DNA from: an uncultured Clostridia bacterium
GTDB taxonomy: Bacteria > Bacillota > Clostridia > Christensenellales > Borkfalkiaceae
Direction: 5' to 3'
Assembly (NCBI GenBank): GCA_904374385.1
Contig: CAJFGA010000001.1
Span: 1-64,000 of the forward strand
DNA: 64,000 bases
Part shown: positions 6,203 to 12,532 of the stretch, piece after piece
How positions within the stretch are numbered: position 1 is the stretch's first letter
Layout of the letters: the number at the start of each line of letters is the position of its first letter
Notes under the pieces: model-generated
The model's database searches: none
What the model saw: only the letters and a program-made list of their open reading frames with translations
Told to the model about the DNA's origin: nothing
Translations under genes and position numbers: made by a program

Positions 6203-6231
6203 ATTATAACACAATCGACTTTTCTTGTCAA
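6203..6231 (-). promoter_or_regulatory. Predicted sigma-A promoter of prfB (TTGACA-17-TATAAT)
   Basis: Minus strand TTGACA AGAAAAGTCGATTGTGT TATAAT. Confidence 0.75.
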
Positions 6232-6291: not shown

Positions 6292-6319
6292 TTGCCGTTT
6301 TTCATTTTTTTGCTATAAT
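6292..6319 (+). promoter_or_regulatory. Predicted promoter of sigma/anti-sigma operon (TTGCCG-16-TATAAT)
   Basis: ttgccg tttttcatttttttgc tataat upstream of the ECF sigma gene. Confidence 0.45.
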
Positions 6320-6404
6320 ATTTTTATCATAGCTCAATAAAAGGCGATACAAAGTTGTTTAATAGACGGACATGTAAGACGGGTATCGCTTGCAGGAGAG
6401 AAAT

Positions 6405-6923
6405 ATGAACCGAAAAAAGATGGACGAATGCCTCGTACGGACGCAAGCGGGCGATAAGACGGCGTATTCGCTTTTCTATGCGGAAACCGCGAAGGGTGTG
6501 TTCGCTTTTCTTTATGGGTATTATAACAACTATGCACGCACGGAAGAGGCGGTGCAGGAGACGTACTATAAGGCGCTCAAAAACATCGCGCAATACCGGG
6601 CAGGGTCGGATGCACGCGCATGGCTCTTACAGATCGCGAAAAATATCGCGCGCAACGATTTAAAACAGGCAAAGCGCGAAAGTACACTGTCCGACGAAGA
6701 GCTCGCGCCGCTGTTGACAGAACAAATTTCCGACGGATGCGTATTCGATGCGATAAACCGCGCGCTCGACCAAACGGAAAAGCAGATCGTGATCCTGCAC
6801 GTTCTTTGGGGATATAAACACCGTGAAATTGCAGTAAAGCTGCAAATGCCGTTGGGCACGGTGACTAGTAAATACAAGGTTTCCGTAGCGAAGCTGAAAA
6901 AATATTGGAAGGAGGATAACTGA
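6405..6923 (+). CDS. RNA polymerase sigma factor, ECF-type (sigma-70 family)
   Basis: sigma2-like YYNNYARTEEAVQETYYKALKNIAQYR and sigma4-like LDQTEKQIVILHVLWGYKHREIAVKLQMPLGTVTSKYKVSVAKLKKYWK; SD AGGAG before ATG. Confidence 0.88.
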   Translation: MNRKKMDECLVRTQAGDKTAYSLFYAETAKGVFAFLYGYYNNYARTEEAVQETYYKALKNIAQYRAGSDARAWLLQIAKNIARNDLKQAKRESTLSDEELAPLLTEQISDGCVFDAINRALDQTEKQIVILHVLWGYKHREIAVKLQMPLGTVTSKYKVSVAKLKKYWKEDN

Positions 6924-6925
6924 GC

Positions 6926-8287
6926 ATGGCGAACTGGAAGAAAAAACTCAACAGAGAACTCGACGGCATCGTGCGCGCCATGCCCTCCGAATTTGCGCCC
7001 GCCGCAGCAACGGTGCGCGCCGAAGCGACCCGCAGGAAAAGGCGTATTTTCCGCTTTACCGCAGTAGCCTCGGCGTGCGCGTTGCTTTTGGGTATACTGC
7101 TGCCCATCTTGATCGTTCTCGCGCCGTTTGACCCTAATACGGGCGGCGTGATCCTTATGCAGATCAATCCCGCCGTACGCCTCTATACAGACGAGGAAGG
7201 CGACGTAACGGCTGTATACAGTGAAAACGCAGAGGGCGACATGATGCTCGCCGACAGCAATTTTACCTCTTCTTTGCAGGGAGTGCCCGCTTCGGAAGCC
7301 GTAAAAAAACTTGCCGAACGCGCGCTCGCCATGGGCTTTGTATCGGAAGGCGAAGATGCCGTGCGCCTGACCGTCGCGGCAGATCGATCCTCTTATGCCG
7401 AACAGCTGCAATCGACGGCGGAAACTTCCGCAGCTGAATATTTTTGCGGCAAAGGATTGTTTGTGCCCGTTCTCAGCCGCACCGTTCCCCTCTCCTTCTT
7501 CGGGGAAGGCAAAAACGTGCAGCAATTGACGCAGCAAGCACTGGAAGCGCCTGTAACGGAAACGGAGCGGGGAGCGGCCGCGACGTCGCCGGAACAGGTG
7601 GAGGAAAATTATCGCTCTTCGCTTTACGATTATGCAAGAGAAGTGACCGACTATGTGTACCGCACCGCACGCATGAAAAAGGAAATGCTCGCGCAGATCG
7701 AGGCGCTCAACGAGCAAATCATGGCGCATGCAGACAACCCGAGGCCGCTGGGCATTCCGCTCTCGTATTGGACTTTAAAATACTCGTCCGGCTATGAACT
7801 GACGGAGGCACTCTCCGCGCTGATACGGCAGACGGACGCTGTCCTTTCCGAATACAACGCCCGCTTCGGGCAGGATCTGCAGAGCACGGATGGTTATCTG
7901 TTGTTCCTCGCCCTGAACTCCTTTTACATCGCGCTCGATTTGCAGCTGCTCGAAGAAAATGTGAACGCCCTGCTTTCCCTCGCCGAAAACTTTGCGGAAA
8001 TTTTCGATCCGAGCGCCTTTCTCCGTTTTATTGCCGGCGACAGCACGATGGAACAGACGGTCGCCGATCTGTTCAGCGGCATCGGCGAAATCCCGAAAAC
8101 GGTGGAAGAATATATAACGAGCAGCATGGAAATGCTGCAGCGCCAAGCCGACCTTGCTCTGCAAGAGAACAAAACCGACTTTACGGCCGTCCTCCCCCCC
8201 CTCTCTTACGAAGAGTATGGTGCGAAATTGCAGGAACTTCGGGAACAATTCAAAAATTTCGAAGATTTTTGGAATTCTTTTCAATAA
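6926..8287 (+). CDS. Putative transmembrane anti-sigma factor with RsgI-like extracytoplasmic domain
   Basis: Short basic N-terminus, one TM (FTAVASACALLLGILLPILIVL), then QINPAVRLYTDEEGDVTAVYSENAEGD resembling RsgI DINPSVEL region; immediately follows sigma gene. Confidence 0.7.
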   Translation: MANWKKKLNRELDGIVRAMPSEFAPAAATVRAEATRRKRRIFRFTAVASACALLLGILLPILIVLAPFDPNTGGVILMQINPAVRLYTDEEGDVTAVYSENAEGDMMLADSNFTSSLQGVPASEAVKKLAERALAMGFVSEGEDAVRLTVAADRSSYAEQLQSTAETSAAEYFCGKGLFVPVLSRTVPLSFFGEGKNVQQLTQQALEAPVTETERGAAATSPEQVEENYRSSLYDYAREVTDYVYRTARMKKEMLAQIEALNEQIMAHADNPRPLGIPLSYWTLKYSSGYELTEALSALIRQTDAVLSEYNARFGQDLQSTDGYLLFLALNSFYIALDLQLLEENVNALLSLAENFAEIFDPSAFLRFIAGDSTMEQTVADLFSGIGEIPKTVEEYITSSMEMLQRQADLALQENKTDFTAVLPPLSYEEYGAKLQELREQFKNFEDFWNSFQ

Positions 8288-8342
8288 AATGCGTTCCCCG
8301 TTTGTTTAATAAGCGATGAAAGCTGAAGGAGGTTAATTGGCT

Positions 8343-9566
8343 ATGAAATTTTGGAAACAATGTACGGCAGGCGTATTGTGTCTTGCCCTTGCGATCGGTA
8401 TGGGCGCTGCGTTGAGCGGATGCAGTCAAAGCAGTTCCGATACTGCTGCGGCGCGCATGCAGGTAGACATCAATCCGAGCGTTGAATTTATCCTCGATTC
8501 CGAAAACAAAGTGCTCAGCGTAACGGCGCTCAACGACGACGGTGCTTTGATCGTCGCGGGAGAGGCGTTCATCGGCAAGACCGCAGAGGATGCTGTGGCG
8601 CTCATGGTAAATGTTTCGACAGAAACCGGCTATCTGCTCAAAGGGGACGCAACCGCTGACGGAGAGACGATCACCATCAGCATCACGGGGGACGCAGACG
8701 CCGCGCAGGCATTGTATGAAAGCATATATACAGACATACAAGGCATTTTAGACGAGAGCGGTATAAATGCGGCCATCGAGCGGGGCGAAGCGCTGCGGCT
8801 CGAGGCGTTGAAGGCGATGGTACTTGCCGCCGATCCCACCCTTTCGGAAGAGGATGCCGACAAGATGACCGAAGCGCAGTTGCTCAACGCGCTCAAAGTT
8901 TCGCGCATCGAAACGGCGCAGCTGCTTACCGAAGAATTGCGCGAAGCGTACAATACGGCAAAGGAATATTCTTTCAACTTCGCCGAACGGCAGGCGACCA
9001 AAGACATTATTGACGGATTGGGTTCTGCCTATCAAGTGCTTTTGAGCGGATATTCGGCGGCGCTCGACGCCTATCGCGAAGCGATCCAATCGCTCGAACA
9101 GGCGCGCTATGACTATCTCGTCGATCCGGAATCGGATTATCAGGCAAAACTTGCGGAAGTGCGTGAACAAAAAGATCTCGTTTTGGCACAGCGCAAAGAA
9201 ATCGCCGCCCTTTCCGAAGGGCCCGCCAAAGAGGCCGCCAAAGCGGTGCTCGCCGCGCAGGAAACCGCGCTTACCGCAAAGGAAGCCGCCCTTACCGCCG
9301 CGGGCAACGCGGCAAACGCTGCTTTCGACATGGCCAGCAGCGCCATGAAGGCGGTAGAAAAAACGCTGACCGACCTGGAAAGCTCCTTCCCCGAAGAGAT
9401 CACCTCTGCCCTCACCGAAAACGCACAGAAAGTGCAGGATGCGATGAACCGGGCGAAGGACGAAGCCTTTGCGGCTTTCGAAGATGCGCACAAAGCAGAC
9501 ATCGAAAAAGCCCTCGCCGACCTTGAAGCGCGCAAACAGGCTCTGATCGACGCCAACGCGGCATAA
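8343..9566 (+). CDS. Lipoprotein with RsgI-like domain and Ala-rich coiled-coil C-terminus
   Basis: Lipobox LSGCSQ; MQVDINPSVEFILDSENKVLSVTALNDDGALIVAGEAFIGKTAEDAVALMV (RsgI-type); long A/E/K-rich helical region. Confidence 0.75.
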   Translation: MKFWKQCTAGVLCLALAIGMGAALSGCSQSSSDTAAARMQVDINPSVEFILDSENKVLSVTALNDDGALIVAGEAFIGKTAEDAVALMVNVSTETGYLLKGDATADGETITISITGDADAAQALYESIYTDIQGILDESGINAAIERGEALRLEALKAMVLAADPTLSEEDADKMTEAQLLNALKVSRIETAQLLTEELREAYNTAKEYSFNFAERQATKDIIDGLGSAYQVLLSGYSAALDAYREAIQSLEQARYDYLVDPESDYQAKLAEVREQKDLVLAQRKEIAALSEGPAKEAAKAVLAAQETALTAKEAALTAAGNAANAAFDMASSAMKAVEKTLTDLESSFPEEITSALTENAQKVQDAMNRAKDEAFAAFEDAHKADIEKALADLEARKQALIDANAA

Positions 9567-9620: not shown

Positions 9621-9653
9621 CTCCCGAAGCGACCCGTTTCGGGAGAGTTTTTT
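9621..9653 (+). terminator. Intrinsic terminator CTCCCGAA-gcgacccg-TTCGGGAG-agTTTTTT
   Basis: Inverted repeat followed by T run downstream of the RsgI-like lipoprotein gene. Confidence 0.8.
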
Positions 9654-9767: not shown

Positions 9768-10556
9768 ATGATAAAGAATGAATATTACGAACCTAAGGCG
9801 GACAGCCCCGGATATATCTATTTTCATTACAGCTGCAACAACAGCACGCCGGCGCACTTTCATGACAGCGTAGAGTTGGTATTCGTCGAGGAGGGCGAAT
9901 TTATTGCGGTCGGCGGCGGGCAGGAAAGGACGCTCGGCAAAGGCGATGTATTTTTTGCCGACGCGTATACCCCTCATCTGTATCGAACCCCGACAGAAAG
10001 CCGCGCGTTTGTGGTCGTCCTTTCCGCGCGGTATCTGCGCGATTTTCGGGAATTTTATAGGGGGAGCCTGCCCATGTTCATGCCCGCCGGAAACGACGAA
10101 AATGCCGCTCTGTTTGATTTTTTGAGGGTCAATTTTGTCTGTTGGGAGAATTATACCCCGCTCATGCGGGCGGGCTTTGCCGACTGGATCCTCGGATACC
10201 TCGCCGCACACTATCCGCCGATCAGCCAAGCGCAGAGCCGCGAAAACCGCTTTATGATAGACGCGCTCACCTATATCGACGCACACTTTGCCGACCCCCT
10301 TTCGGCGGCGGGCATCGCCGCACAGTTCGGGTATTCCCCCAACTATTTTTCCGCACTGTTCAACAGGTGCATGCGGATTAATTTTCGCGACTATCTCAAC
10401 GGCGTTCGGCTGAATAAGACGGAAGAATACCTGCGCCGCGACCCGGAAGCGGGCATCGGCGCGGCGGCACGTTCCTGCGGTTTCGAAAGCCCGAATACAT
10501 ATTACCGCGCCAAAAAGCGCGCGGACGAAATGAAAGACAATCAAGGAAAATCGTAA
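9768..10556 (+). CDS. AraC family transcriptional regulator (cupin sensor + HTH)
   Basis: N-terminal HFHDSVELVFVEEGEFIAVGGGQERTLGKGDVFF cupin; C-terminal AGIAAQFGYSPNYFSALFNRCMRINFRDYLNGVRLNKTEEYL AraC HTH. Confidence 0.9.
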   Translation: MIKNEYYEPKADSPGYIYFHYSCNNSTPAHFHDSVELVFVEEGEFIAVGGGQERTLGKGDVFFADAYTPHLYRTPTESRAFVVVLSARYLRDFREFYRGSLPMFMPAGNDENAALFDFLRVNFVCWENYTPLMRAGFADWILGYLAAHYPPISQAQSRENRFMIDALTYIDAHFADPLSAAGIAAQFGYSPNYFSALFNRCMRINFRDYLNGVRLNKTEEYLRRDPEAGIGAAARSCGFESPNTYYRAKKRADEMKDNQGKS

Positions 10557-10586
10557 TTTTTGACAATAAATACATAACCGGCGGGA

Positions 10587-10615
10587 TTGATTTCTTCCGG
10601 TTTTCCCTTTATAAT
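10587..10615 (+). promoter_or_regulatory. Predicted promoter of sugar isomerase-like operon (TTGATT-17-TATAAT)
   Basis: ttgatt tcttccggttttccctt tataat. Confidence 0.55.
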
Positions 10616-10637
10616 GGATGCGCAAGGAGGAATGCTT

Positions 10638-11480
10638 ATGAAAATCGGAGCAATCTTAGAAAGTTTCAGAAAACCTTTTGCGGAAGCGGTAAAGCTGGCG
10701 CGCGCAGCGGGCGCTGACGGCATGCAGATGTATGCAAACACACAGACCGTCCACAGCGGCATGCGCGCAAAGGATATCGCGGAAGTTAAAAAAGTGCTTT
10801 CGGGAGAGGGGCTGGAGATCAGTGCGCTCTGCGGAGATTTCGGCTGCGCGATGTATTACACCCAAAACCGCGAAGAGATCGACCGCGAAAAGCGGATCAT
10901 GGAAATCGCCAAAGAATTGGGGACGGACATCGTGACCACGCATATCGGCGTAGTGCCCGAAGAGGAGAACTGCCCGCAATACGAAAGCATGCACAACGTC
11001 TGCCGCGAATTGGCGGAATTTGCAGATCAAGCAGGCGGACATTTCGCCGTAGAGACGGGGCCGGAATCGGCAGAAAGGCTGAAACACTTTTTGGACGGTT
11101 TGGGGAGCCGCGGCGTCGCCGTCAACCTTGACCCGGCAAACCTCGTAATGTGCGCGGGCGACGATCCCGTGCGCGCCGTTTATACCCTTAAAGATTACAT
11201 CGTACATACCCATGCGAAGGACGGACTGCAGCTGAGAAAAACGGATACGCGCAGGCTGTATGCCGCCCAATGGTACGGTCTTGAACAGGAAAGCTGGGAC
11301 GCCATCCGCGAAGTACCCCTCGGGGAGGGCGGCGTAGACTGGAATAATTATATCGCCGCACTCAGGGAGATCGGCTACGACGGTTACCTGACCATCGAAC
11401 GCGAATGCGGCGACGATCCCGTAGCGGACATCACTGCGGCCGTGAAATTTTTGCAAAAGCAACTTGGGAGGACAAAATAA
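10638..11480 (+). CDS. Sugar phosphate isomerase/epimerase family (xylose isomerase-like TIM barrel)
   Basis: [33 protein letters not shown]...HTHAKDG...[10 protein letters not shown]-type motifs; SD AGGAGG. Confidence 0.85.
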
Positions 11481-12532
11481 TGAAAAAACTTAAGATCGGC
11501 ATCATCGGCACCGGCAATATCTCGCAGCAGCACGCCGCCGCATATTTGGATGACGAGCGCTGCGAATTGTACGCACTGTGCGATATCGATGAAGAAATTC
11601 TCGCCGCCAAAGGCAAACTCTATCACATCGACAGGCTTTATACCGACTGCAACAAAATGCTGGCGGAGCTTCCTGAACTTGACGCCGTAAGCGTATGTAC
11701 CTGGAACGCGGCGCACGCCCCCTGCACCATCGCGGCGCTCGATGCGGGCAAACATGTGTTCTGCGAAAAGCCGATGGCGATGAGCACGGCGGAAGCCGAA
11801 GAAATGCGCGCCCATGCCAAAAAGGCGGGCAAGCTGCTCGGATTGGGATTCGTGCGCAGATTCGGCAAAGACGCCGATTTGGCGCGCGCCCTCATACAGG
11901 AAGGAAAACTCGGCAAAATTTATTATGCGAAGGCCGCCTATAATCGGCGCAACGGAAGCCCCGGCGGCTGGTTTGAAAACAAAGCCCGTGCGGGCGGCGG
12001 GCCGCTCATCGACCTCGGCGTGCACATCATCGATTTGGTACGCTATATTGCCGGGAATCCCCGCCCCGTTTCCGTATACGGCGCGACCTATTCGCTGTTG
12101 CGCGACAGGGAGATCGTCGACCTGCCCGCCTACCTTGCTTCCCGCCCCGATGCGCCCGTAAGCGATGTGGAAGACCTCGCGACTGCGATGATCCGCTTTT
12201 CGGACGGCATGATTTTACAGGCGGAAACGAGCTATAAACTATATACGGGAGATGACTGCAACCGCGTGGAACTGTTCGGCACGAAGGGCGGCATCAGCAT
12301 CGACCCCGACCTCAGTCTGCACACCTCCGCCGCGGGAAAACTGGCAGAAATGTCTTTTCCCTTCCCCGCCGCCTATGGCCCGGAATCATATGCGCAAGAA
12401 GTCAAATCGTTTATTTCCGCGATCGTCGACGGCACACCTCTGCGCGCCGACGCGGACGACGGCGTAGAGATGATGAAGATCCTCGACGCGATCTATCTCT
12501 CCGCCGAGACGGGGCACGAAGTTATCCTGTAA
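11480..12532 (+). CDS. Gfo/Idh/MocA family oxidoreductase
   Basis: KIGIIGTGNISQQHAAAYL Rossmann, FCEKPMAMSTAEAEEM; TAATG overlap with upstream gene. Confidence 0.92.
   Translation: MKKLKIGIIGTGNISQQHAAAYLDDERCELYALCDIDEEILAAKGKLYHIDRLYTDCNKMLAELPELDAVSVCTWNAAHAPCTIAALDAGKHVFCEKPMAMSTAEAEEMRAHAKKAGKLLGLGFVRRFGKDADLARALIQEGKLGKIYYAKAAYNRRNGSPGGWFENKARAGGGPLIDLGVHIIDLVRYIAGNPRPVSVYGATYSLLRDREIVDLPAYLASRPDAPVSDVEDLATAMIRFSDGMILQAETSYKLYTGDDCNRVELFGTKGGISIDPDLSLHTSAAGKLAEMSFPFPAAYGPESYAQEVKSFISAIVDGTPLRADADDGVEMMKILDAIYLSAETGHEVIL

Follow-up and report, generated by a model that had tools for sequence, protein, structure and literature searches.

SEAL domains are self-cleaving, force-type switches in the RsgI anti-sigma factors, and the RsiV/SigV and RsiW/SigW systems join an ECF sigma factor to an anti-sigma factor with a short cytoplasmic segment, a transmembrane (TM) helix, and regulated intramembrane proteolysis. 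Sigma24C of Clostridium thermocellum is an ECF-type factor. Sigma factors of the SigI type contain region 2 and a sigma-I-C domain and have no region 4 (PMC6056542). During SigI/RsgI signaling, the anti-sigma factor cleaves itself, the resulting pieces are retained, a signal separates them, and intramembrane cleavage follows (PMC12203970). The sigma24C-Rsi24C pair (Cthe_1470-1471) has been listed beside the SigI-RsgI pairs of C. thermocellum (PMC3990059).

The module considered here occupies positions 6405 to 9566 of a 64,000-nucleotide (nt) stretch of an uncultured Clostridia genome (the window), where genes for an ECF sigma factor, a single-TM protein, and a lipoprotein follow one another on the plus strand, at the positions given in a preliminary description of the window. 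The 172-aa sigma factor (6405..6923, plus strand) matches the Pfam domains Sigma70_r2 (E = 2.4e-11) and Sigma70_r4_2 (8.7e-7, over the cut-off), passes the NCBIfam cut-off for the sigma70-ECF superfamily (3.2e-14), and is a small protein with regions 2 and 4 only, as is characteristic of ECF factors. The same domain search, which had been proposed as a check, was run on all three proteins and placed RsgI_M in the other two. The ATG of the second gene begins 3 nt after the sigma stop codon ends, as had been noted, leaving a 2-nt gap, and the module ends in an intrinsic terminator-like hairpin on the plus strand (9621..9645; 11-bp stem, AGTTTTTT tail). Nearly every genome of the genus encodes an ECF paralogue that shares about 36% identity with the module sigma factor, one copy lying at G000:C25:3569-4060. 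A perfect sigma-A consensus promoter (TTGACA-17-TATAAT) on the minus strand at 6203-6231 apparently drives the divergent prfB, and positions 9768-12532 hold a gene for an AraC-type regulator and then sugar-phosphate isomerase-like and oxidoreductase-like genes, likely a sugar operon unrelated to the module.

The second gene (6926..8287, plus strand) encodes a predicted membrane anti-sigma factor of 453 aa that matches PF23750 (RsgI_M; E = 9e-9, above the curated cut-off). It comprises a cytoplasmic segment (aa 1-41), a TM helix (about 42-65) followed by the stretch MQINPAVRLYTDEEGDVTAVYSENAEGD, a SEAL/RsgI_M domain (about 72-187), and a helical C-terminal domain. An AlphaFold2 model based on an alignment of relatives is confident (mean pLDDT, 86.8) and places N81-P82 in the turn between strands beta1 (74-79) and beta2 (83-88); besides the start, the invariant residues of the alignment are N81, P82, and N101. 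The five best PDB matches to this model in Foldseek are RsgI periplasmic domains, including 8t9n (B. subtilis) and 8hdj. A phmmer search of the protein against PDB sequences returned unrelated chains only, so the assignment depended on the Pfam profile and on the fold search. Because the cytoplasmic segment is devoid of Cys and His (there is no HxxxCxxC-type motif in residues 1-45), a ZAS anti-sigma factor is excluded, and this partner of an ECF-type sigma uses the central, or SEAL, domain of RsgI in its place, as originally proposed. No Pfam anti-sigma domain matches the cytoplasmic segment; those of relatives share a short pattern, L..ELD...P.(M/L)S..L...PI, and a single-TM protein adjoins the sigma factor in the surveyed loci. 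From its position, and by analogy, we infer that the cytoplasmic segment binds the sigma factor.

The third gene (8343..9566, plus strand; ATG at 8343, with TTG at 8337 as an alternative start) encodes a 407-aa protein that again matches PF23750 above the curated cut-off (E = 5e-20). A signal peptide and a lipobox Cys (LSGC, Cys27) identify it as a bacterial lipoprotein; these are followed by DINPSVEFILDSENKVLSVTALNDDG, a SEAL domain with N44-P45, and a long helical C-terminal domain. In an alignment of 31 lipoproteins, C27, N44, P45, and G78 are invariant. The AlphaFold2 model, again from an alignment of relatives, is fair (mean pLDDT, 78.3), with the NP in the turn that joins strands one and two (35-42 and 46-52) and long helices at the end, and its five best PDB matches are all RsgI periplasmic domains (including 8t9n, 8her, 8hdj, and 8heq). 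Outside the SEAL domain, the models of both proteins are helical. Both downstream proteins were originally held to resemble RsgI, with a lack of detectable similarity as the named refutation, and the profile matches above cut-off and the fold matches bear out the resemblance. The NP dipeptide is present in 183 of the 183 SEAL domains of unique loci, and, by analogy with RsgI, the SEAL domains of both module proteins are expected to self-cleave between Asn and Pro. One anti-sigma factor of a triad outside this set (L270:1828-3111) seems to lack Asn-Pro (YAVEISQTQAK) and offers a natural test case for the loss of self-cleavage.

These two proteins are the only RsgI_M matches in the 1.96-Mb genome (an assembly roughly 90% complete), and therefore no separate RsgI system is detected in it. 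The genome also encodes a full-length site-2 protease of the M50 family (E = 3.6e-60). A search of phages returned no similar DNA.

ECF promoters are autoregulated and have a conserved -35 element containing AAC. An unbiased paired-word search upstream of 102 sigma genes returned, de novo, the motif CAAYAAA-N15-GTTTAAT, whose exact pairs are spaced exclusively by 15 (50 cases) or 16 bp (10 cases) when spacings of 5 to 25 are scanned, and which mostly lies 10 to 50 nt ahead of a start codon. Its first block before the sigma gene reads CAAC in some loci and CAAT here. The window contains two exact matches on the plus strand with identical spacing (CAATAAA-N15-GTTTAAT), one before the sigma gene (6335..6363) and the other before the lipoprotein gene (8282..8310), and we regard both as predicted ECF promoters. 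A sigma-A-type promoter-like site upstream of the sigma gene (TTGCCG-16-TATAAT; 6292..6319, plus strand), which matches 10 of 12 consensus positions and has a TG before the second hexamer in a consensus scan, would provide basal expression. With up to two mismatches, two matches in the window alone are unremarkable (11 of 100 shuffles), and the weight of the motif comes from its exactness, position, and recurrence, not from window-alone statistics.

In 1.05 Mb of sequence from 97 unique loci, the exact motif occurs 53 times before the sigma gene, 57 times before the lipoprotein gene, and never on the opposite strand; ten further copies on the same strand lie elsewhere and look like the products of over-long predicted starts or unrecognized lipoprotein genes. 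Allowing two mismatches, the motif precedes both the sigma and the lipoprotein genes in 57 of the 75 loci with the order sigma-anti-lipoprotein. The 1.96-Mb genome itself contains only the two exact copies of the window. Four triad genomes of the genus have exactly two exact copies each, both within the module, and the exact motif is absent from three of the seven (G009, G020, and G042); the 33 genomes of the genus without the module hold three copies in total.

In the 301 genomes of the family, 76 of 119 motif copies fall in modules, and the 43 outside compare with about 31 for a reversed control pattern. For the 14 such outside sites that lie in module genomes, the only convincing targets downstream were two further sigma genes of this kind. 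With outside copies near chance and convincing targets wanting, the strict regulon is therefore the module itself. In searches for a wider regulon, a shortened motif added no site to the two in any of the four genomes, and allowing one mismatch added four sites in the genome of the window (versus two for the reversed control); the regulon may still be wider, as a strict motif may miss weaker targets. Because the promoter motif of the sigma gene also stands, as a separate copy, before the lipoprotein gene, the lipoprotein is a predicted target and output of the sigma factor. The original suggestion that the second SEAL-domain protein is a sensor or competitor is thus correct as to the presence of such a protein but incomplete as to its role. 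Modules with other sigma types have different two-block motifs before the lipoprotein gene (read by eye); in L090-L096, the sigma genes mostly have sigma-A-like sites and the lipoprotein gene has an ECF-like CAACC...TTGTCTATAT (also by eye).

The preliminary description named no described system with this layout. The gene set is not unique to this genome: it occurs in many of the family's genera and, within the order, in several further families. RsgI_M is encoded in 109 of 301 family genomes, representing 16 of 18 genera, in many cases as adjacent pairs. The module is patchy within the genus (7 of 40 genomes, with two RsgI_M matches in each), and the closest loci are syntenic with prfB and secA. 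Among 40 family loci picked for having RsgI_M pairs, an ECF sigma gene adjoins the pair in 39, and the fortieth (L076) begins at a contig end. An independent scan of named contigs, with a sigma alignment as the sole seed, yielded 80 loci, of which 65 have two SEAL genes beside the sigma gene and 11 have one (several at contig ends); the four most distant have none. Named matches belong to uncultured Clostridia, Candidatus Scatosoma, Fimimonas, and Ornithoclostridium among them. Recurrence in 65 of 80 and 39 of 40 loci is far beyond chance, and chance was rejected as the origin of the layout.

Conservation of the three-gene set in relatives, which had been anticipated, holds, but the order sigma-anti-lipoprotein is not universal, since the 40 family loci show either this order or lipoprotein-sigma-anti. 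The preliminary description was also correct in viewing the system as rewired to an ECF sigma factor. ECF sigma factors paired with a SEAL anti-sigma factor but with no lipoprotein occur commonly across the order and class, and the ECF-type sigma24C-Rsi24C pair is listed beside SigI-RsgI pairs, so the rewiring is not locus specific. Several other arrangements were observed. L258 and L260, from other families, are triads whose sigma factors are divergent; in L260, two TM-type SEAL proteins flank the sigma factor, and there is no lipoprotein. The ECF-linked SEAL anti-sigma factor of L199 has five PepSY stretches, and a SEAL lipoprotein in L267 has four, with no sigma factor detected in the fetched stretch. 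L257:2886-5982 encodes an anti-sigma factor with an RsgI_N-like match (E = 0.0012, below the curated cut-off), an upstream 242-aa protein that is possibly of the SigI type, and then a SEAL lipoprotein, and the lipoprotein partner may therefore extend beyond ECF systems.

The lipoproteins make up a single clade whose sigma and anti-sigma partners have changed. In a SEAL tree built from few columns and rooted at its midpoint, all lipoprotein domains form one branch (support, 95/81), and the anti-sigma domains occur in several places. One lipoprotein clade (100/100) is paired with anti-sigma factors of three separate lineages. Outside the genus, the lipoprotein nearest to that of the window is from L095 (41% identity over the C-terminal part), a locus whose sigma and anti-sigma factors are distant; the promoter of its lipoprotein gene, TGCAATAAAA...TTATTAATAT, is similar to the one found in the L080-L087 group and not to that of the window, and the anti-sigma factors of L080-L087 are the nearest to its own. 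These sequence relationships indicate that operons have swapped the lipoprotein, its promoter following the local sigma factor. Such exchange with a locally matched promoter favors an output over an obligatory receptor subunit, and the lipoprotein is best read as the principal output of the sigma factor, not as an accessory sensor only, that probably also feeds back.

Taken as a whole, the module is likely to be a compact envelope-signaling circuit with the lipoprotein as its main sigma-dependent product. The short cytoplasmic tail of the anti-sigma factor would hold the ECF sigma inactive, and its SEAL domain would cut itself at N81-P82, with the pieces presumably staying joined through the beta sheet. 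A signal acting on the helical ectodomain would pull the two pieces apart, whereupon, as inferred from SigI/RsgI, a site-2 protease would cut the TM helix and free the sigma factor. Transcription from CAAYAAA-N15-GTTTAAT would then proceed at the sigma factor's own operon with the anti-sigma gene and at the separate lipoprotein promoter, and the motif evidence suggests that the lipoprotein would be the main product. The envelope is the most likely place of action of this lipid-anchored protein, which has a long helical rod and a SEAL domain predicted to cut itself, and which possibly closes a feedback loop on the anti-sigma factor. A more specific joint reading is tentative and less likely than not: the module would be a widespread ECF switch whose essentially sole output is a lipoprotein bearing the anti-sigma factor's own self-cleaving SEAL domain, and the induced lipoprotein would absorb, or compete for, the force or ligand that separates the anti-sigma pieces, providing mechanical negative feedback.

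Two alternatives concern what the lipoprotein does. It could be a pure effector without feedback, for instance an envelope spacer or protective coat, in which the SEAL domain is a fuse that shears off and sheds the rod. Its own promoter copy, as apparently the sole strong output, its long helical rod, and its lipid anchor together with an invariant NP are all compatible with this role, which would, however, make the domain in common with the anti-sigma factor a coincidence, unless domain duplication explains it; we hold the pure effector to be possible but on the unlikely side. A role mainly as a co-sensor, in which a heterocomplex with the anti-sigma ectodomain (SEAL-SEAL or helix-helix) relays the envelope signal and the sigma-dependent promoter merely maintains stoichiometry, is the less probable of the two. 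The two proteins do have the same domain and helical C-terminal domains, and the lipoprotein is always found within the same small gene set, conserved across families. Against a co-sensor stand the lipoproteins that have switched anti-sigma partners (the clade with 100/100 support), L095, which has the related lipoprotein but neither the sigma nor the anti-sigma factor, and the many ECF/SEAL pairs that appear functional without an adjacent lipoprotein.

That CAAYAAA-N15-GTTTAAT is bound by a different regulator or has a structural role, and that the sigma factor has unrelated targets, is improbable: although the tie between motif and sigma factor is one of sequence, and the motif might be where a repressor or an activator binds instead of the promoter proper, it has two blocks at a fixed 15- to 16-bp spacing before start codons, it differs in modules with different sigma types, and it is absent from most genomes without the module. 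It is scarcely credible that the module belongs, as a divergent case, to the SigI/RsgI family. The SEAL domain and DINPS motif are common to RsgI, but the sigma factor has region 4, and RsgI_N (PF12791) has no match in the module at E values of up to 1, whereas the canonical RsgI proteins of L229 and L230, which come from this class of bacteria, match it at about 7e-10. The preliminary description's RsgI likeness therefore extends to the middle domain but not to RsgI_N, and membership in the SigI/RsgI family was rejected on account of the missing RsgI_N and the presence of region 4, which make the module an ECF/SEAL system. RsgI_N is also absent from both of the ECF/SEAL pairs without a lipoprotein that were examined (L199 and L224).

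A SEAL anti-sigma factor is already known from SigI/RsgI, and the promoter motif is the main new result. In many uncultured gut Clostridia, the SEAL domain is coupled to ECF sigma factors and duplicated into the apparent main sigma target. If our preferred reading of a lipoprotein-producing circuit is true, the module is a very small and easily rebuilt circuit (two promoters and three genes) for testing how force or wall damage is sensed, suggests a promoter consensus for an uncharacterized ECF group, and poses the question of the part played at the cell surface by a lipoprotein that can be shed. The literature searched, with the main papers on SEAL and on ECF classification lying outside it, contained no account of a SEAL lipoprotein or of the promoter motif, and ECF/SEAL pairs or SEAL lipoproteins may have been described earlier.

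Compared with described systems, the module resembles the RsiV and RsiW types in its ECF sigma factor, short cytoplasmic segment, TM helix, and expected regulated proteolysis, and differs from them in its ectodomain and in the site-1 step, which a protease performs in those systems and self-cleavage is expected to perform here. Like the module, sigma24C-Rsi24C consists of a sigma factor and an adjacent membrane anti-sigma factor, but Rsi24C has a GH5-like ectodomain and no SEAL lipoprotein partner is mentioned for it. In the ECF/SEAL singletons (for example L004, L199, and L204; some with PepSY repeats), an ECF sigma gene is followed immediately by that of a single-TM SEAL protein, as in the module; these have other C-terminal domains and no SEAL lipoprotein within their 1.5-kb flanks. 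With the SigI/RsgI systems of Bacillus subtilis and the C. thermocellum sets, the module shares a single-TM anti-sigma factor, an extracytoplasmic SEAL domain with an Asn-Pro site, and a sigma gene directly upstream of the anti-sigma gene. It differs from them in its ECF sigma factor with region 4, its lack of RsgI_N, and its extra SEAL lipoprotein with a promoter copy of its own.
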